A stretch of 22,255 nucleotides of DNA. Source: a virus. The translations under genes were made by a program, and so were the position numbers. The notes under the pieces were generated by a model. It worked only from the letters and a program-made list of their open reading frames with translations. It was not told the origin of the DNA and did not search any database. Every line of letters starts with the position of its first letter. The first letter of the stretch is position 1. The DNA is taken from positions 1-22,255 of IMG/VR virus record IMGVR_UViG_3300025759_000783; one strand, given 5' to 3'. This document shows, one piece after another, positions 5,791 through 22,054 of the stretch.

Positions 5791-5821
5791 TAAATATACG
5801 AATTTATTACCTAATTACCAA
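5791..5821 (-). promoter_or_regulatory. P2, Bacteroidota-type promoter for helicase-nrdB-nrdA-trx
   Basis: Minus strand: TTGG (5821-5818), a 19-bp spacer ending in TTCG, TATATTTA (5798-5791). The helicase ATG follows after 4 bases. The promoter occupies the only gap between the exonuclease stop and the helicase start. Confidence 0.75.
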
Positions 5822-7976: not shown

Positions 7977-8768
7977 TTAATTGTTAAATAAATCTTCAAA
8001 TGCGTCTTTTACATCAGCAGTAGTTGCGTTTGATACTGCCGCTGGTTCATCATCTTTGAATGGTGAATCGGTTGATTGGGTTGGTTGAGTTTCCTCTTCC
8101 TCAGAATCACCTAACTGCCCAGTTTCCAACCACTTCTCCAACAAACCTTTCATCTCATCGTAAGAGTACTTTTTGAACATCGTTGGAAGTTCAATCTGGT
8201 CTTTAACCAATTCCAAAACATTCTTATCCTCTGTGATAGGAGTTTGGTTTGGTTTAACACGGATGTACGTTTCAGGATAGTTCTTACCCAACTCTTTAGC
8301 GGTTTTGAACTCTACAGTGATATCTCTACCACTAGTCGGGTCGGTCAAATCACCATAATCAGGGTCAGCGAAGAATGCCAACAATTCCTGGTATACGGTC
8401 TTACCGAATCCCCAAAACTTAACACCCTCAGATTCCTCACCTCTTACAATGACAGGAACATACGTTCTCATCTTAGGTGTAAGTTGTTTGGAAAGATTCC
8501 AATCGTTTCTATCTCCCGTTGCCTTCAATTGGTCAGCGAACTCCATAAGTGGGTCTGCCTCACCAAAGGTTTGGGGTGATAGAATGTTCTTACCACCAAA
8601 TCCATAGTGGAAAAACAATTCGATAAAAGGGTTTGATTGATTGTGTACATAAGGTACGATTCGTACCTGCTGCTTGCCGGGCTTCGGCTTCCACAAATTG
8701 TCAGTCTTTTTTACTTTTGTCTGTAGACTGTCCAGACGGTTTCGGATTGCATCTAAATCGATTGCCAT
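7977..8768 (-). CDS. gp32-like single-stranded DNA-binding protein
   Basis: A 263-residue protein with the T4 gp32 layout: a basic N-terminal segment for cooperativity (LDAIRNRLDSLQTKVKK), an OB-fold core recognisable from QQVRIVPYVHNQSNPF (34-49) and LFFHYGFGG (52-60), then RTYVPVIVRG and KFWGFGKTVYQELL, and a long acidic C-terminal tail (about 220-263, ending in DAFEDLFNN) that normally recruits partners. It has no cysteine at all, so the zinc site of T4 gp32 is absent. Expression is probably high: two copies of the promoter lie upstream, and GGAG is 6 bases before the ATG. The leader is A-rich and could serve in autoregulation, as for T4 gene 32 (inference). Confidence 0.88.
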   Translation of the reverse strand: MAIDLDAIRNRLDSLQTKVKKTDNLWKPKPGKQQVRIVPYVHNQSNPFIELFFHYGFGGKNILSPQTFGEADPLMEFADQLKATGDRNDWNLSKQLTPKMRTYVPVIVRGEESEGVKFWGFGKTVYQELLAFFADPDYGDLTDPTSGRDITVEFKTAKELGKNYPETYIRVKPNQTPITEDKNVLELVKDQIELPTMFKKYSYDEMKGLLEKWLETGQLGDSEEEETQPTQSTDSPFKDDEPAAVSNATTADVKDAFEDLFNN

Positions 8769-8803
8769 AATTACTCCATTTTTTAATTAGTTAAACATTT
8801 ATT

Positions 8804-8838
8804 TTACAAATATACGAAAGTTTTTTCAAACTTCCAAG
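8804..8838 (-). promoter_or_regulatory. P3, proximal copy of the duplicated promoter for the SSB gene
   Basis: Minus strand: TTGG (8837-8834), a 19-bp spacer ending in TTTCG, TATATTTG (8814-8807). The full 35 bp are identical to P4, 87 bp upstream. The spacer contains the inverted repeat AAGTTTGAAAAAACTT. It leaves an A/T-rich leader of about 35 bases before the SSB start. Confidence 0.75.
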
Positions 8839-8847
8839 CACATTTCA

Positions 8848-8885
8848 ATTTTTATTTTCAACACTCATTTACTCCCATGTGTTGA
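8848..8885 (-). promoter_or_regulatory. leader segment with small hairpin and mini-ORFs between P4 and P3
   Basis: Only the P4 transcript contains this segment. It has a 6-bp stem (CAACAC / GTGTTG) around a 14-base loop. Two overlapping tiny reading frames start in it: MGVNEC and MSVENKN. No known riboswitch is recognised. A role in translation or attenuation is speculative. Confidence 0.3.
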
Positions 8886-8890
8886 TATGG

Positions 8891-8925
8891 TTACAAATAT
8901 ACGAAAGTTTTTTCAAACTTCCAAG
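8891..8925 (-). promoter_or_regulatory. P4, distal copy of the duplicated promoter for the SSB gene
   Basis: Minus strand: TTGG (8924-8921), a 19-bp spacer, TATATTTG (8901-8894), identical over 35 bp to P3. It lies just past the stop of the 129-residue gene. Exact identity in non-coding DNA points to recent duplication or strong selection on the whole site. Confidence 0.75.
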
Positions 8926-8943
8926 TATAAATATCAAAAAGTT

Positions 8944-9333
8944 TTATTTAACATCAACTATTCGGAACAATTTTGTTCCCATTACCTTATACCCATCACC
9001 ATCGGTAAGAATCAATGAGTTACGATAATCCTGCCAAGTTACCTGATAGGTTTTATCCTCTACCCCACCATTGAGTTCTTTAATCAATCGGTTTAATGCG
9101 TTAATGGTGTACATAGTGTTTGATTCTTTCTTCCGATGCACCATAATACTATTTGGTAGGAATCTATTATCTCTATCCGGCACTATATTATAACTAACCA
9201 CCAATTCCTTTGATGGCTCTAACTTCAGAATAAAAATCTTACGACTAAACAATTCATACGATTCGAAAATCTCATTTAACAAATCTTCAAATGTAAGTTC
9301 TGTTGTAAACGTACATAGTAATTGCGTTCTCAC
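8944..9333 (-). CDS. conserved-looking phage protein of unknown function
   Basis: A 129-residue protein with no enzymatic motif that I recognise. Visible blocks are LPNSIMVHRKKESNTMYTINALNRLI in the middle (residues 60-85) and TWQDYRNSLILTDG later; such well-formed blocks suggest a conserved alpha/beta protein. I choose the GTG at 9333: AAGGGG ends 5 bases before it, whereas the nearby ATG at 9337 is out of frame and opens only a 16-codon frame. It is the last gene of the P5 unit, 13 bases after the 733-residue gene and directly before the SSB promoters, so a replication-linked role is possible but unproven. Confidence 0.7.
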   Translation of the reverse strand: MRTQLLCTFTTELTFEDLLNEIFESYELFSRKIFILKLEPSKELVVSYNIVPDRDNRFLPNSIMVHRKKESNTMYTINALNRLIKELNGGVEDKTYQVTWQDYRNSLILTDGDGYKVMGTKLFRIVDVK

Positions 9334-9346
9334 CCATTCCCCTTAT

Positions 9347-11548
9347 TTATTTGATTCCAAGAGACTGCTTAACCTTACCAAGAGGTAACTCTTTCACGCC
9401 TTCGAAGTTATAACTATACTTACCGCTATCATTAGTACCCATTCTGAATTGTGAATATTTGAAATCCCCCTTTTCGTTGATTCCCGATAAACCATATGCT
9501 CTCAAGGTGAAATACGTTTTTTGGTCAGAACTATATAGATAGAACACTACCACATCAGATAGGTCTTTATTCATTTTCTCCTCAACATAACTCTCTGAGC
9601 CAGGATATGGTTCATATGCAGTACCACCACCATCTTTACTTAAGCCATATACCTTATACAATGGTAATGTAGTTTTACCATATACCATTTCCTTTTCTAA
9701 GGATACCATTTGTGAATACAACTTACTCGCATCTGCATTCAAATCACCCATCATATTCTGTAGAACAATTGCTGATTGGAAGTTGGTAATCAACTTCGCA
9801 ACATTATCCTTAGTTACAGGTGCTTTTATCTTCAAATCCTTATACCCAGCATAGTAAAACGCAGGGTTTTTATCTGCTGCCTTCTTTAGTTTGGTAAATT
9901 CATTGTTTGTGTTTTTCACAATAACATCTAACAATTTCTGGTCTTTAGATATCTCTTCAAAAGATTCCCACATTGATGCTTTACCTTCACCCAATAGGAT
10001 ACCCTCTTTGATTGTACCCGTCATACCAGCACGTTGTAATTGTTTTTCCAAATCACTAACCTGCTTAGTTGGTGCTTTTGTTAGTGATGAGTATATCTTC
10101 TTTCCCATAGAAAGCATCATATCACCAGCTTGCTTTAACTTAGATAGGAAGTCCGTACCAATGTTTCTGATAAAACCCATACCTCTTTTAACGAAATCAC
10201 TAAACCCTTCGTTAATCGCAAGGTCTAATACATCATTGTTACTCAACAATCCATACTTATCTTTTAGGTATGAATAGATTTTACCCAACTGAGCTGAATC
10301 CTTACCTTTTTTAAGTGATATCTGAATAAACTTAATCTTCGTTCCTTTGATTGTACAAACACCCTTTCCATCATACTCAACAGGCATTCCCTTTTCTAAG
10401 TTTGCTATCAATTCTGGACCAGGCACATTTGATACAACAGCATCGGTTGTATTTTCCTTAACACCATCGACCAAATCGGAACGTTCGGTTGCAGTATAAT
10501 ATGCTTTGATACTCTTATGGATTAGGTATGGTTTAAACGATAGTATATCATCAGTAAATTTAGTCATACCTGCCATTAACTGACCCAATAGAATCCAATC
10601 ACCCAATGGCATATTATCTAACTTCTTACTAATTTCACCAGCATTAGCATAATCACCACTACTCCCCAATGCTTTTACAACTTTATCTTTTACTTTGGCT
10701 ACAACCTTTGGAAGTTCATCTGCAGTTTTAGCTGAACTTAGTGTATCTAATATTGAGATACCATTTACGAACAATCCCATACACGCCGCGGTTTCTAATA
10801 CTTCGGTGTTCCAATTAACGTTGTTAGGGGATGCACCCTTTCTCATCTTACCAAATAGAGAACGGAATTGGTTTGCGGATGCGGTAATCTTATATGTTTT
10901 CTTTGTATCATCTGCGGATACATAAACAGTTGGGCCTGAACCAATGTTAACTTCTACCGCATCATCCATTTCGCCCATTTTAGTAAACGGGCCTTTTGGA
11001 TTCTTCTCACCAGAAGGTAATCCCTTAGAGAATAATTCCGCCGTAGCCTTCAAGGGTAAAAATCTATCACCTACTGAATACTTAGAATCAAAGATTGATG
11101 CTTCCGATAGGAGAACCCCCAACCCTTCAATAACCTCCTGCATTTTCTCTTTTTCCAATGCAGTTAGTGCGTTTCTTTGAATATCTTTTTCAGCTTTCTC
11201 TTTATCATCACCAGTCTCAGGACGTTCTTCTTCAGATTCATCCTCTTCTTCCCAAACATATCCAGGTTCATCATCATCATCACCATCACCGTGCAGATGT
11301 GCTGATACCGCAGTATCATTTCTACCTACAACAATACCTGATGTTCTATCACCACCTAAATGAAAGTTTGTAGGTGTTTTGACAGTACTTTCTATAATGT
11401 ATTCGATTACATCAGAATCGAAATCATATTTTTCTCTTAATACCTTTTTGAGTCCTTCAATCGATTTTTCAGATAATGGATTTTTCGCAAGTTCACCACG
11501 ACACTCTATCCACCATAAATCGATTAGTTCATTAAGAAATTCATTCAT
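9347..11548 (-). CDS. large phage protein of unknown function
   Basis: A 733-residue protein I cannot assign. Seen: an N-terminal globular part; a strongly acidic low-complexity linker (about residues 87-120: DGDDDDEPGYVWEEEDESEE) encoded partly by an (ATC)n-like run near 11,270-11,290; a long, mostly helical and lysine-rich middle; and a compact C-terminal part with aromatic strands (VVFYLYSSDQKTYFTLRAYGL). Around residues 363-430, KENTTDAVV followed by FIQISLKKG and AQLGKI has some resemblance to PD-(D/E)XK nuclease cores, but the acidic residue of the second motif is not clear. Its start overlaps the polymerase stop (ATGA), so it is translationally coupled to the polymerase. It could be a replication accessory or an injected virion protein. 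Confidence 0.75.
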   Translation of the reverse strand: MNEFLNELIDLWWIECRGELAKNPLSEKSIEGLKKVLREKYDFDSDVIEYIIESTVKTPTNFHLGGDRTSGIVVGRNDTAVSAHLHGDGDDDDEPGYVWEEEDESEEERPETGDDKEKAEKDIQRNALTALEKEKMQEVIEGLGVLLSEASIFDSKYSVGDRFLPLKATAELFSKGLPSGEKNPKGPFTKMGEMDDAVEVNIGSGPTVYVSADDTKKTYKITASANQFRSLFGKMRKGASPNNVNWNTEVLETAACMGLFVNGISILDTLSSAKTADELPKVVAKVKDKVVKALGSSGDYANAGEISKKLDNMPLGDWILLGQLMAGMTKFTDDILSFKPYLIHKSIKAYYTATERSDLVDGVKENTTDAVVSNVPGPELIANLEKGMPVEYDGKGVCTIKGTKIKFIQISLKKGKDSAQLGKIYSYLKDKYGLLSNNDVLDLAINEGFSDFVKRGMGFIRNIGTDFLSKLKQAGDMMLSMGKKIYSSLTKAPTKQVSDLEKQLQRAGMTGTIKEGILLGEGKASMWESFEEISKDQKLLDVIVKNTNNEFTKLKKAADKNPAFYYAGYKDLKIKAPVTKDNVAKLITNFQSAIVLQNMMGDLNADASKLYSQMVSLEKEMVYGKTTLPLYKVYGLSKDGGGTAYEPYPGSESYVEEKMNKDLSDVVVFYLYSSDQKTYFTLRAYGLSGINEKGDFKYSQFRMGTNDSGKYSYNFEGVKELPLGKVKQSLGIK

Positions 11549-12807
11549 ATCATATCCATTGTTTCAATATTCGTAGATTCCATTTCAGAATACCTATCGC
11601 CTATTTCCATTTTTGTGGGGAATCCATTCCCTTCTATAAGTATCTTTAAATTTTGTAAAATACTCATTTCTTCGGGATGTATATCTAATAAGTATGAATC
11701 ATATGTGTATAACACCATTTTCGATTTCATACCACTTAAAAATTCAACCACTTTTGAAAGTATCTTCATATTCAACTCCGTTTCCGTTGCTTGTAGTAGG
11801 TAGTTGAATAGTTTGTTAGCATTCATATCCTTTAGGTTGGATTTAGATAGTACCCTACCCATTGGAGTTTTGATAAATCCGTTTCGATTGAACTCCATCC
11901 ACATCAAATCAATTTTGTGTGAAACTTTTCCGAAAAGTGGAATACTTCGGTATTCCTCTTGCACCCCACCATACAATTGGCGGAATGTGATTCCTTTTGA
12001 TTCATCATAGGATACCCCATACATATCGGCAAGTGCTTGGTGTCCACTCACATCGGTTGAAATTGGTTCACCTACCATCTTACCAATGATACGCGGGTGA
12101 TATGCATCGTAATCAAATTGTACCAACTTACCCCCTTCGAACCTACTTACGAACCTATCTCTACTACCATCATCCTTATTGAGTGCCGCATAGTTTATCC
12201 CTCCGAAATTGTTTGAAGGACGTGATGTAATAGTGAATGGGTGGTACTCTGTCCACTCCAATCCATTTGTTGTATAGATTCCGTTTGATTCTACTTTATG
12301 TAATGGCTTAATATAGAAATTTTCAAATTTCTTCACACATTCGAAACTCACACCACCCAAATCGTAATACTGAAGGAAATCATTTCTAACATCTCTTATC
12401 ATCTCTATTTGTTTTGAGATTGGGATAAGATTGTTAACTCCTTTTAGGTTACTGAACCTACGATGATAAAATGTATGTGTTGGTGTTGCGATAGATTGTA
12501 ATGGTGAGTTCGAATGTAAATACTTTACCCATCCCGCATCTACTGAGTTTGGTATCTGAATGTGATTAAGTAATCCTTTGTTACCATACACATATGCTCT
12601 CTCAAAAGAGAACGTAATTTTATCCAAAATGGTTGTATGGGTATCTATGTTCTTTAGGTTGATTAAAACCTCTCTATCCTCTTCTATATCGTATATATAC
12701 AACAAAGATAACCCGTCATTATGCGGGTGTACGGATATACTCTCCCAAATGGGATGAATATATACCTCTTTCATAGATATATTTCCCTCAGCAAGAAATT
12801 CAACCAT
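11545..12807 (-). CDS. family A DNA polymerase, polymerase domain without recognisable exonuclease
   Basis: A 420-residue DNA polymerase. RPSNNFGGINYAALNK (196-211) matches the T7-like template-binding region. Motif A is FDYDAYHPRI (231-240, catalytic D232). Motif B is K271-x3-F275-x3-Y279-G280. The QATETEL segment (339-345) is the usual palm helix. Motif C is LYTYDSYLLD (366-375) with YDS in place of HDE and D370 as the second catalytic residue. Residues 1-180 are too short and lack DxE/ExD-type exonuclease motifs; they may be a remnant domain plus thumb. Starting at 12807 places the ATG 4 bases after the -7 box; the next Met is residue 12 (12774). Proofreading would have to be absent or supplied by another protein. 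Confidence 0.85.
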   Translation of the reverse strand: MVEFLAEGNISMKEVYIHPIWESISVHPHNDGLSLLYIYDIEEDREVLINLKNIDTHTTILDKITFSFERAYVYGNKGLLNHIQIPNSVDAGWVKYLHSNSPLQSIATPTHTFYHRRFSNLKGVNNLIPISKQIEMIRDVRNDFLQYYDLGGVSFECVKKFENFYIKPLHKVESNGIYTTNGLEWTEYHPFTITSRPSNNFGGINYAALNKDDGSRDRFVSRFEGGKLVQFDYDAYHPRIIGKMVGEPISTDVSGHQALADMYGVSYDESKGITFRQLYGGVQEEYRSIPLFGKVSHKIDLMWMEFNRNGFIKTPMGRVLSKSNLKDMNANKLFNYLLQATETELNMKILSKVVEFLSGMKSKMVLYTYDSYLLDIHPEEMSILQNLKILIEGNGFPTKMEIGDRYSEMESTNIETMDMI

Positions 12808-12811
12808 ACAT

Positions 12812-12842
12812 CAAATATACGAAATTATTTCTTATCAAGCAA
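12812..12842 (-). promoter_or_regulatory. P5, Bacteroidota-type promoter for the polymerase unit
   Basis: Minus strand: TTGC (12842-12839), a 19-bp spacer ending in TTTCG, TATATTTG (12819-12812). The -33 box and part of the spacer lie inside the last codons of the upstream 43-codon gene. The ATG at 12807 follows 4 bases after the -7 box. Confidence 0.72.
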
Positions 12843-16195: not shown

Positions 16196-19132
16196 TTATC
16201 CCAAATCGTAAACGTTAGACATTGCATATTGTGGAATCGCATCATCTAATATCTTCATTCCAATTGCCACATCAATACCCATTGAAGCTTCTTCATCCAC
16301 ATCCCAAGGTACTTCATCAGAGAATGTGTATGATAGCGATTCAATGAATGATAATTTATTCTTCCAAAGATTACCCAATGTGAATGTAACCAAAGTACCA
16401 GTATACCCCTTTGTACCATAAGTTGGCATCGTCATCGATGATAATCTTTCTAATTTTGTGTATAGTGGTTTTAACTCTGCTTTTGATGTGGGATACACCT
16501 GAAAGTTAAAACTTAAACTTCTCTCAAACGTAGAATATTTGTATGCCTGGTCAGCTCTACCATTATATTTGAACGAATCCCAAGATGGTGAGAATGTTTC
16601 TGTAATACCACTCACAGCACCTCTGAATTGTATTTGGGAGCCACCACCATAAACATTAAATAGTAGTTTAATTAAATCATTTTGTGCTTCAGCACCAATT
16701 GCAGATGTTTGTACAGCATCACTTGATAATGATTTAGTTCTATCACTTCTATCTGTACCATGTGCTGGCGCAGATGGGAATCCTACACGAGCTTCTATGT
16801 TATCGTTTGTGTAGTTTTGGTTATCAGCTCGCTTCTTTCCATTACCATCATAAAGATTTCTGAAATCGTTGAACGTCGTATCACCAGCAACTCTTTTTGG
16901 TATCTTACCATATGAGATTGTTTCGTAGTTTTTTATGATTTCTGCGGCCGCTGTATTCTTTTCTAATGGGTGGATAGTACCTTCAGTATTTTTAGTATTA
17001 TTCTTAAAAGAATCTGGTAGGTTGTTTGCATTTAATCCTAACTCAGTATTATCTGGTTCAAATGGAAGGCCTGGCAAACCTGATTGATTAGGTCCACCCT
17101 CAGTTGGATTATATTGGTTTTGGGTTGTATATCCGCTAAATAAATCTGGAAGTGTACTTACATTTCTAGATGGTAATAACCCATTCGGAATTAACCCATA
17201 TAATGAGTTAGGGCCGCCCGTCCCAAGAGCTAGAGTATTAAATTGTTCACCAACAAATTTACTCGTACTGATTGTGTTAGCTGCTATTGTAAATGTTTCA
17301 TTGTACAATTGTATCAATCGGTTTCCAGTAACTGGAACACCAAGGGTTACATCATCAATATGAGTTAATTTCTTACCTTTTTGTGTTGCGCTATAAGTTT
17401 CAACTTCAGGGTCAAATGGAGTGAATCCGTGTCTCTTTGGTCGTAATCCAACAAATCCACCAATTGCGGATGCGATTGTGTTAATTGGAGTCCAAGTTTT
17501 AGTTAACCTCTTACCGGTCAATGTTTCCACATTTGGATTAGATGCTTGTAACCCCAAATTTTTGATTCCCCACAGCAATCCATTTACAGAAATCATCCAC
17601 TTACCAAGTCTAACAGCATCTACTACCGACCTATCAACTGCAGTAACAATACCACCTCTAACCAACCCGTCATCGACTGGGAATCCAAATCCCCACTTTT
17701 GTGGTTCACCTTTATCAATTGGCTTTCGTTGAATACCTCTCATAATCAATGGATGTGCGAACGCAGCCGTTCCTAAATTAAATGCATCATCTCTAAGATT
17801 ATATTTGTGATACATTTCATCTAAGAATGAAGGTGAGTTCTTCATCTCATGTAATTTGGATATGCTTGGATTTGTTAATTCAGTATCTACATAATACTTT
17901 GTATCAAAGTTATATCTCTGAGTCAATCCAGTTTCTTTACCCACCTTAAACTTACCATATCCAGCTCTGAACGATAATCCGTTAAATGCCCCACTAAAGT
18001 TACTATATAATGAACTTACATTATCAAACTGAGTATTATCGGGATTTATACCAACAAATTTGGTTTTAGTTTTATCAGTAAAGTTCTGAGTAAACCCAAT
18101 TGCCTTATCGTTTGTAAACATATCCACAGATGGTGGAGTAACCGCCTGCTTATCTTTGTTGTTTGGGGTTTTGAAATTCTTTGGAGTCGTTTCACCTAAG
18201 AACTGTGCACCTAAATTCATATCACTTGGAGTAGTTTCACCTAAGAATTGTGCCCCCAAATCCATATCGCTTGGAGTAGTTTCACCTAAGTACTGAGATT
18301 GATTATTCATCTCAGTTGGAGTTGTTTCTCCTAAGTACTGAGATTGTGGTGCAGCTGAATTTGGTGTTGTTTCTCCTAAATACTGTGATTCATTGTTCAT
18401 CTCAGTTGGAGTTGTTTCTCCTAAGAATTTTGATTCTGGTGCAGCTGACTTCTGAGTAGTTTCGCCTAAGAATTTTGATGTATTATCCATAGGAGTTGGG
18501 TTGGTTTCACCCAAAAACTTAGATTGTGGTGCTGCTGATGTAGGGGTTGTTTCTCCGAGATAATTTTCGGAATTATCCATTGTTTTTGGTGTTGTCTCCC
18601 CTAAGAATTTCTCAGAATTATCCATTTTAGATGGATTCGTTTCACCTAAAAATCTCTCCGATGTATCCATACGATTTGGAGTAGTTTCCCCTAAAAACTG
18701 CTCTGATGAATCCATTTTTGATGGGGTTGTTTCCCCTAAGAATTTTTCTGAGTTATCCATCGCTTGTGGATTTGTTTCACCTAAGTAGTTTGGTGAATTA
18801 TCCATCTTCTCTGGTGTAGTCTGACCTAAATATCTTTGTTCCAAACTCATTCGAGTCGGTGTAGTTTCGCCTTTGAACTTCTCTGAGTTATCCATAGGTG
18901 TTGCTGATGTTTCGCCTTTGAACTTATCACCCTGCTGAACTTTATTTGGGTTTACACCCTCTTTATTTGTTGTTGTTTGGGAACGTGGGATTTTCGGCGC
19001 TGAATCTACCAGTGAACTCAATGGTGTTTGGTTCTGGTTTGATTTTATATCCTCTCTCTTTTTAGATTCCAAAGGTTCTTTCTTTGGCATTCTAAACTTG
19101 GACAAATCCGATTTCATATCTTTCAGTGCCAT
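16196..19132 (-). CDS. tube-initiator/baseplate-like structural protein with 15-residue tandem repeats
   Basis: A 978-residue protein. Residues 1-70 are basic and polar. Residues 71-310 are sixteen contiguous 15-residue repeats with consensus (F/Y)LGETTPxxMDNSEx, and a partial seventeenth ends near 320. Residues 330-815 are unassigned. The last 160 residues (from NDLIKLLFNVYGGG) have a strand-rich pattern, IQFRGAVSGITETFSPSWDSFKYNGRADQAYKYSTFERSLSFNF and later GTLVTFTLG and DVAIGMKIL, similar to C-terminal domains I associate with tube-initiator or baseplate proteins of T4-like phages (gp48/gp54 position). It starts with a TAATG overlap on the tape measure gene and precedes LysM, the position expected for such a protein. 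Assignment is moderate. Confidence 0.6.
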   Translation of the reverse strand: MALKDMKSDLSKFRMPKKEPLESKKREDIKSNQNQTPLSSLVDSAPKIPRSQTTTNKEGVNPNKVQQGDKFKGETSATPMDNSEKFKGETTPTRMSLEQRYLGQTTPEKMDNSPNYLGETNPQAMDNSEKFLGETTPSKMDSSEQFLGETTPNRMDTSERFLGETNPSKMDNSEKFLGETTPKTMDNSENYLGETTPTSAAPQSKFLGETNPTPMDNTSKFLGETTQKSAAPESKFLGETTPTEMNNESQYLGETTPNSAAPQSQYLGETTPTEMNNQSQYLGETTPSDMDLGAQFLGETTPSDMNLGAQFLGETTPKNFKTPNNKDKQAVTPPSVDMFTNDKAIGFTQNFTDKTKTKFVGINPDNTQFDNVSSLYSNFSGAFNGLSFRAGYGKFKVGKETGLTQRYNFDTKYYVDTELTNPSISKLHEMKNSPSFLDEMYHKYNLRDDAFNLGTAAFAHPLIMRGIQRKPIDKGEPQKWGFGFPVDDGLVRGGIVTAVDRSVVDAVRLGKWMISVNGLLWGIKNLGLQASNPNVETLTGKRLTKTWTPINTIASAIGGFVGLRPKRHGFTPFDPEVETYSATQKGKKLTHIDDVTLGVPVTGNRLIQLYNETFTIAANTISTSKFVGEQFNTLALGTGGPNSLYGLIPNGLLPSRNVSTLPDLFSGYTTQNQYNPTEGGPNQSGLPGLPFEPDNTELGLNANNLPDSFKNNTKNTEGTIHPLEKNTAAAEIIKNYETISYGKIPKRVAGDTTFNDFRNLYDGNGKKRADNQNYTNDNIEARVGFPSAPAHGTDRSDRTKSLSSDAVQTSAIGAEAQNDLIKLLFNVYGGGSQIQFRGAVSGITETFSPSWDSFKYNGRADQAYKYSTFERSLSFNFQVYPTSKAELKPLYTKLERLSSMTMPTYGTKGYTGTLVTFTLGNLWKNKLSFIESLSYTFSDEVPWDVDEEASMGIDVAIGMKILDDAIPQYAMSNVYDLG
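18173..18922 (-). repeat. 45-bp coding tandem repeat array (16 full units plus a partial)
   Basis: The units are exactly 15 codons with no indels. GET is invariant except one GQT; position 1 is F or Y. Two sub-types differ at residues 9-13 (MDNSE-like or SAAPQ/E-like), and some neighbouring pairs (residues 236-265 and 281-310) are nearly duplicated, indicating internal amplification. Third-base changes are frequent, so the array is not brand new. Confidence 0.95.
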
Positions 19133-22015: not shown

Positions 22016-22054
22016 ATTAGATACTCCGTTTGTTCTATATAGTATAAATATAGA

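Follow-up and report, generated by a model that had tools for sequence, protein, structure and literature searches.

A probable autoregulatory leader with embedded promoters upstream of the gp32-type gene of a T4-related phage

Background

Just upstream of a gene for a single-strand DNA-binding protein (SSB), a viral sequence of 22,255 nt (IMG/VR record IMGVR_UViG_3300025759_000783, the whole of which is called the window below) carries the same 35 bp twice, and the locus raises the question of what two copies of one promoter, and the sequence held between them, do for the gene that follows. The initial annotation described identical promoter copies 87 bp apart with unrelated sequence between them, and suggested either dosage for SSB or the use of two different leaders. 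The repeat is exact as described (87 bp from start to start, with 52 bp between the copies); the window has no longer exact direct repeat, and about 2.6e-12 such repeats would be expected from base composition. The suggestion of two different leaders agrees with the sequence; dosage does not account for what is best kept at the locus. The reading developed here is that the region is probably a gp32 autoregulatory leader with promoters embedded in it.

The gene downstream does encode a single-strand binding protein, and one of gp32 type. Its product matches the Pfam gp32 family (PF08804, 54.8 bits against a cut-off of 26.8) and PHROG 1192; a profile search of PDB sequences returns gp32 entries 8gme (E 9e-7) and 1gpc (E 1e-5); and Foldseek, run on a structure model with a mean pLDDT of 75.5, returns gp32 of RB69 and T4 (RB69 SSB core, E 9e-9, TM 0.52-0.65). 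UvsX-like, exonuclease and DnaB-like genes follow SSB, and the genes discussed at the locus all lie on the minus strand (Table 1). The phage appears to be related to T4 and to infect Bacteroidetes, a host suggested by its promoters and by a Flavobacterium phage relative. Elsewhere in the window, the polymerase-like ORF at 11545-12807, short at 420 aa, resembles family A weakly and may represent a split or reduced enzyme, and positions 18181-18926 hold 45-nt repeats within ORF 19132-16196, coding for units of about 15 residues (FLGETTP...) in a presumed structural protein.

Table 1. Features of the SSB locus, in window coordinates.
Feature	Position	Strand	Basis or detail
gp32-type single-strand DNA-binding protein gene (263 aa)	7977..8768	minus	Pfam, PHROG, profile, fold
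A/U-rich leader up to the SSB start codon, with weak structure and containing UUAA units	8769..8802	minus	
P2, inner repeat copy	8804..8838	minus	-33 TTGG 8837-8834, 19-nt spacer, -7 TATATTTG 8814-8807; predicted start ~8802
RNA hairpin enclosing P2 in read-through RNA	8808..8845	minus	16 pairs; folding, covariation, control promoters
H-type pseudoknot	8858..8890	minus	Covariation, gene specificity, covariance model, T4 comparison
P1, outer repeat copy	8891..8925	minus	-7 TATATTTG 8901-8894; predicted start ~8889
P0, TATTTATA motif abutting P1, putative phage-type promoter	8926..8933	minus	Strand bias, position
Upstream ORF	8944..9333	minus	No PHROG or Pfam match

Sequences compared

A search with the SSB protein supplied the best 80 of at least 599 relatives. 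Among these, the linker between the repeat copies is kept in 30 of the 30 group-1 loci with upstream sequence (SSB identity of at least 81%; L003-L033 minus the truncated L027), at -117 to -125 from the start codon, and is absent from the loci with upstream sequence listed below group 1, at 76% identity or less. Further scans brought the collection to 363 loci, including repeat fetches of the same contigs, which reduce to 145 distinct upstream regions of at least 60 nt. These comprise the 40 that bear the linker (PK1), a sister group of 19 (G2), a third group of 37 (G3) and a remainder of 49, called other below. The PK1 class is set by a pattern that holds part of the first stem described below; 21 of its 40 regions have a member fetched by protein, and the rest come from a pattern scan of viral contigs, in which 110 stretches matched and 80 of these were examined. 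Because known members served to build this pattern, modules that diverge more would escape it.

Fifty-two distinct occurrences of the pattern were found in all loci examined. Eight are not genuine (seven near-identical coding-like stretches and one GC-rich contig), and the 44 genuine ones all stand before SSB. A mobile promoter cassette was therefore rejected as a description of the module, on the loci examined (80 of the 110 pattern matches). A covariance model of the PK1 element, run over three phage records and 68 loci of the G2 and other classes (the 37 G3 loci not being included), found nothing at E <0.1 outside group 1; a single G2 match stands at E 0.13.

The linker between the promoter copies

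The linker, far from being unrelated filler, can be folded as a pseudoknot that covaries among relatives. Read on the minus strand from 8890 to 8858, it runs CCAU-A-UCAACAC-AUGG-GAGUAAAUGA-GUGUUGA: the first stem (S1) pairs CCAU (8890-8887) with AUGG (8878-8875), a single A (8886) forms the first loop (L1), and the second stem (S2) pairs UCAACAC (8885-8879) with GUGUUGA (8864-8858) around a loop at 8874-8865. In 25 distinct modules, 99.3% of pair cells hold standard pairs, against 93.0% after shuffling; 5 of the 11 pairs show double changes, with 17 double-changed cells against 4.8; and the covariation score is 0.191 against 0.085, none of these values being reached by any of 500 shuffles. Further pair types are no more numerous than after shuffling (6 against 6.6, reached by 472 of 500 shuffles). 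Sliding the partners against each other, as a control, drops pairing to 25-44%.

The collecting pattern fixes three of the S1 pairs and the first bases of S2, so within S1 it is the fourth pair that is informative. This pair is U-A in 14 modules, A-U in 9 and broken in 2, a switch between CCAT/ATGG and CCAA/TTGG. Loci L328 and L099 have identical SSB coding sequences and opposite S1 states, both paired, a compensated change. On a tree of SSB coding sequences the state changes at least eight times, a count that recombination could inflate; independent contrasts, on the starred branches, number only three, all three in the expected direction (p 0.25). One lineage (L013, L240, L253, L254) has the fourth pair mismatched. 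Taken together, the comparison strongly supports an RNA pseudoknot encoded by the linker.

Some relatives depart from the simple arrangement. In L022-L024, at about 2750-2980, three promoters alternate with two pseudoknot modules before SSB, so that promoter and pseudoknot can evidently duplicate as a unit. In L253, L254 and L240 (the L013 type), an inserted stretch parts P1, about 100 nt before the linker, from the pseudoknot; the insert ends in GGTGGTTTTAAATCCACT, which looks like a T-arm, and ARAGORN finds no tRNA in it. G3 loci (L197, L182 and others) have a different stem between promoter and SSB, UUAG..GUUG..AUGU with ACAU..CAAU..CUAA, whose covariation is weak in an alignment of 18 of 35 leaders with the 3' end cut (L202, L214 and L216, where the element is shortened, and 14 others were left out); G3 leaders also share a conserved UUCUAGAC stretch.

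The promoter copies

On the minus strand each repeat copy reads CTTGG-N19-TATATTTG-TAA, upstream of the SSB ORF. The Bacteroidetes promoter, in the accessible text of PMC6847099, has the -33/-7 consensus TTTG / TAnnTTTG, with transcription starting 4-5 nt past the -7 box; the starts given in Table 1 are predictions that take this spacing, at 4 nt. Both copies have -33 and -7 boxes at the separation of about 19-20 nt characteristic of this sigma class, the -33 box being CTTGG, and both are plausible promoters of the Bacteroidetes type. The same type of motif precedes three other genes of the window (MazG-like, DnaB-like and polymerase-like). Other promoters of this type (1305-1314, 5793-5802, 12814-12823) lie only a few bases before a start codon, which suggests leaderless mRNAs, and next to these short-spaced promoters the SSB leader is exceptional. 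The two predicted SSB leaders themselves differ greatly: RNA from P1 would have a structured leader of about 121 nt, its start falling one base within the 5' end of the pseudoknot, and RNA from P2 a nearly bare one of about 34 nt.

The initial annotation proposed comparison across relatives, and there the second copy proves neither absent nor decayed throughout. P1 directly adjoins the linker in 34 of the 40 distinct PK1 regions, with P1-P2 spacings of 87-89; among the remaining six, a promoter-like motif stands 101-135 nt upstream of the linker in four, and the available stretch shows none in the other two. Exact identity of the copies is another matter, since P1 and P2 share an identical spacer in just 3 of the 21 distinct pairs. 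In L003, whose SSB protein is 100% identical to that of the window, the copies agree at 33 of 35 positions. At the other two, and nowhere else in the 35 bp, the P2 of the window differs from that of L003, each time having the base of P1, which makes the exactness of the repeat less telling; two further changes lie just upstream of the 35 bp. Two unusual changes are common to both copies in L255, and L236 has a different core, the same in both copies. Across genomes, P1 and P2 of the same locus average 13.0 of 19 identities against 12.35 for pairs from different genomes (permutation p 0.036), so that copying is visible in a few lineages only. Exact identity thus looks lineage-specific and resembles recent copying, and copying between the promoters in some lineages would explain it better than selection for identity.

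Abutting P1 is a motif, TATTTATA, that possibly acts as a late-type phage promoter (P0). Across 447 kb of SSB loci, 129 copies lie in the sense orientation and 22 as the reverse complement. Near 644 gene starts the figures are 95 and 20, and the first 100 coding bases hold no copy; since some matches overlap -7 boxes and related loci recur, these totals should not be taken as numbers of independent sites. The window by itself shows no excess of the motif (2 found, 2.8 expected), the sites being the one at P0 and another at 22043-22050, both in minus-strand sense. The motif precedes SSB in 22 of 40 PK1, 18 of 19 G2, 9 of 37 G3 and 14 of 49 other regions. A search for a gp55-like late sigma factor found none in 7 of 8 records and, in the other, one weak match (E 0.008) to a hypothetical protein of Flavobacterium phage immuto; a search with a second family matched nothing anywhere, controls included. 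UUAA units occur in 144 of 145 leaders, at 2.36 per leader against 1.60 in shuffled sequence, and the PK1 class has the fewest (1.75 per leader).

The hairpin within the inner promoter

RNA that reads through P2 can be folded into a hairpin in the order AAAUGUGC, UU, GGAAGUUU, GAAA, AAACUUUC, GUAUAUUU, that is, an outer arm (AAAUGUGC/GUAUAUUU) and an inner arm (GGAAGUUU/AAACUUUC) closed by a GAAA loop. The predicted fold of the leader has an energy of -19.2 kcal/mol (z -2.65). The consensus from 21 of 26 PK1 contexts (four near-duplicates were dropped, as was L379, its outer arm partly broken) has 16 pairs, four of them with double changes. Among PK1 and G3 promoters together (44 distinct of 46, with 30 other and 8 G2 promoters left out), 85.2% of hairpin cells pair, against 67.5% when shuffled, with a covariation score of 0.536 where shuffling gives 0.235; the double-changed pairs are reached by 22 of 500 shuffles and the further pair types by 45 of 500.

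At least five of the six core pairs form in 18 of 18 distinct PK1 promoters, 16 of 28 from G3, 8 of 30 others and 0 of 8 from G2, and in 5 of 54 control promoters of the same loci; after similar sequences are thinned, the SSB promoters give 6 of 6, 7 of 13, 5 of 21 and 0 of 1. The idea that such a dyad is a general feature of promoter spacers was rejected: in a set of 53 control promoters, pairing is near the column expectation. Two of the five control promoters with at least five core pairs form all six; one of them, in L202, may be a second SSB-type copy. Single departures from Watson-Crick pairing in the core comprise 21 G-U, 4 A-C and 13 others, with related sequences recurring among them, and the excess of G-U over A-C is indicative of a structure in the sense RNA strand.

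Other groups have their own forms. The G2 promoter has a stem that pairs the -33 box instead, with a crossing stem in some members, and the cultured Flavobacterium phage immuto has GAATAT-TAAA-ATATTC in the spacer of its SSB promoter. A Bacteroidetes-type promoter also precedes the gp32 gene of Microcystis phage Mel-JY01 (L394, 1387-1418); this phage is recorded on Microcystis, and its true host may be a Bacteroidetes companion.

The layout of the T4 leader

In the T4 record, the gene 32 leader can be read, from -67 to -40, as UGCC-A-GCUAUGA-GGUA-AAGUG-UCAUAGC, which fits where the pseudoknot lies and how long it is according to the accessible text of PMC3014915 and PMC535899 (position and length, rather than the pairing figure, were what was compared). 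A finder with fixed geometry (S1 of at least 4 bp, L1 of 1-2 nt, S2 of at least 6 bp, gap of 0-1) returns the same result for T4, at -67, and for the window: 4 bp, 1 nt, 7 bp and a gap of 0. It succeeds in 37 of 40 PK1 leaders, a count biased by the fact that PK1 is classed by a pattern holding part of S1 (the protein-only set of 30 loci is free of this bias), and in 7 of 19 G2 leaders, at -73/-72. It finds nothing in the 37 G3 and 49 other leaders, nor in immuto, Mel-JY01 or LR756508. The background is 1 in 1450 shuffles and 3 in 437 other ORF starts, the latter being ORFs of at least 120 aa, unfiltered for real genes.

Discussion

What is conserved in this region is RNA structure linked to the SSB gene, a sign of control at the level of mRNA more than of a plain doubling of promoters. 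In the mechanism we propose, SSB present in excess over single-stranded DNA would bind the structured leader and, by analogy with T4, spread along the A/U-rich stretch and block its own translation. RNAs begun at P1, at P0 or farther upstream would carry the pseudoknot and the P2 hairpin, although S1 is perhaps one pair short in P1 RNA, whose predicted start lies inside it. No terminator-like site was found in 8700-9400, so RNA of the upstream gene would hold both structures as well. RNA begun at P2 would start downstream of both and have only the short leader, and such messages may escape or weaken the control, responding less to SSB.

Dosage alone, with the promoter duplication raising SSB transcription and the linker having no role, would suit two copies that both fit the Bacteroidetes consensus, the adjacency of P1 to the linker in 34 of 40 regions and the loci of L022 type with three promoters. 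It leaves unexplained why the linker is conserved and covaries, and why it persists in six of 40 regions where P1 is missing or displaced, two of them with no promoter in the available stretch; together with the rarity of identical spacers, this makes the dosage proposal of the initial annotation quite improbable. A structure that stabilizes or marks the mRNA for processing (a pseudoknot at the 5' end, a long hairpin cut by an RNase of the host) in place of an operator bound by SSB is unlikely rather than far-fetched: the pseudoknot does sit at the predicted 5' end of P1 RNA, and the P2 hairpin has 16 predicted pairs. Stabilizers could serve any gene, however, and the linkage to SSB alone, the T4-type geometry and the UUAA leader are better explained by autoregulation.

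To the remaining two accounts we give little credence. The dyads might act in DNA, as protein operators, cruciforms or part of a replication origin, and the P2 dyad does sit at a constant position between the -33 and -7 boxes of those SSB promoters that have it; but changes in its arms are compensated, G-U outnumbers A-C on the sense strand by 21 to 4, and the crossing pairs of the pseudoknot are unexpected of a duplex operator, so that this is very improbable. Least probable of all is a leader peptide controlling SSB, encoded by a short ORF in the loop (NTG GGN NTA AAT...). The loop triplet is ATG in 14, TTG in 9 and GTG in 2 of the 25 modules, giving M-G-(L/V)-N, and in the GTG lineage a start codon is retained although an S1 pair is broken; yet the ORF runs anywhere from 4 to 24 codons, its sequence is not kept past codon 4, and the covariation of the stems is left unexplained.

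Autoregulation by a gp32-type leader, the reading we favor, has counterpoints of its own: the 49 other and 37 G3 leaders have no pseudoknot, and 22 of the 30 other promoters have no hairpin. A bolder extension is offered tentatively, as possible rather than likely, namely that the DNA of the inner promoter, if transcribed from a start farther upstream, doubles as a gp32-responsive RNA hairpin that is missing from RNA begun at this promoter itself, giving rise to autoregulated and escape messages, and that T4-type pseudoknot control by gp32 arose or persisted in Bacteroidetes phages, its sequence unrelated and its site variable: group 1 would have it between the promoters, and part of group 2 inside the promoter. 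Promoter and RNA structure here occupy the same bases.

Comparison with known systems

PeSL elements are mobile promoter/stem-loop cassettes of T4-type phages. The module described here resembles them in setting a promoter beside a stem-loop and in the existence of tandem units (L022), and differs in being found only before SSB instead of being shuffled among genes. STAXI has a current Rfam model; nothing in the window matches any known RNA family at the Rfam gathering level, and STAXI is not among the five weak matches at the locus (best E 0.74). The STAXI motif, in the accessible text of PMC2864571, consists of tandem pseudoknots often found near SSB genes, and a pseudoknot near an SSB gene, in tandem copies in some relatives, is what the two have in common. 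Promoters for the primary sigma factor of Bacteroidetes are matched by both boxes in both copies, with a 19-nt spacer after TTGG; the SSB copies add to this a covarying spacer dyad that is mostly absent from control promoters of the same loci.

The closest likeness is to the gene 32 operator of T4 and RB69. In T4, according to the accessible text of PMC535899 and PMC3014915, gp32 nucleates on the pseudoknot and spreads over UUAA-rich RNA across the initiation region. The window likewise has a gp32-family gene downstream, an H-type pseudoknot with a short first loop and a 7-bp S2 (from sequence and covariation), and an A/U-rich leader with UUAA/UUAAA units, two of them in the window. The differences are several: the sequence is unrelated; loop 2 is 10-12 nt long, against 5 in T4; the pseudoknot occupies -122 to -90, which puts it some 55 nt farther upstream of the start codon than that of T4; and it does not stand directly 5' of an unstructured initiation region, since it lies between promoters, with a further covarying hairpin, in the inner promoter, between it and the initiation region. 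The promoters are of Bacteroidetes type, against the enterobacterial setting of T4. Our search of the literature (subscription papers lay outside its scope) found no report of a gp32 pseudoknot in Bacteroidetes phages. The locus would offer, in a distant group, a gp32 leader whose pseudoknot repeats the T4 layout in unrelated sequence and covaries strongly, and through it the manner in which gp32 recognizes its own message becomes testable across many natural variants.
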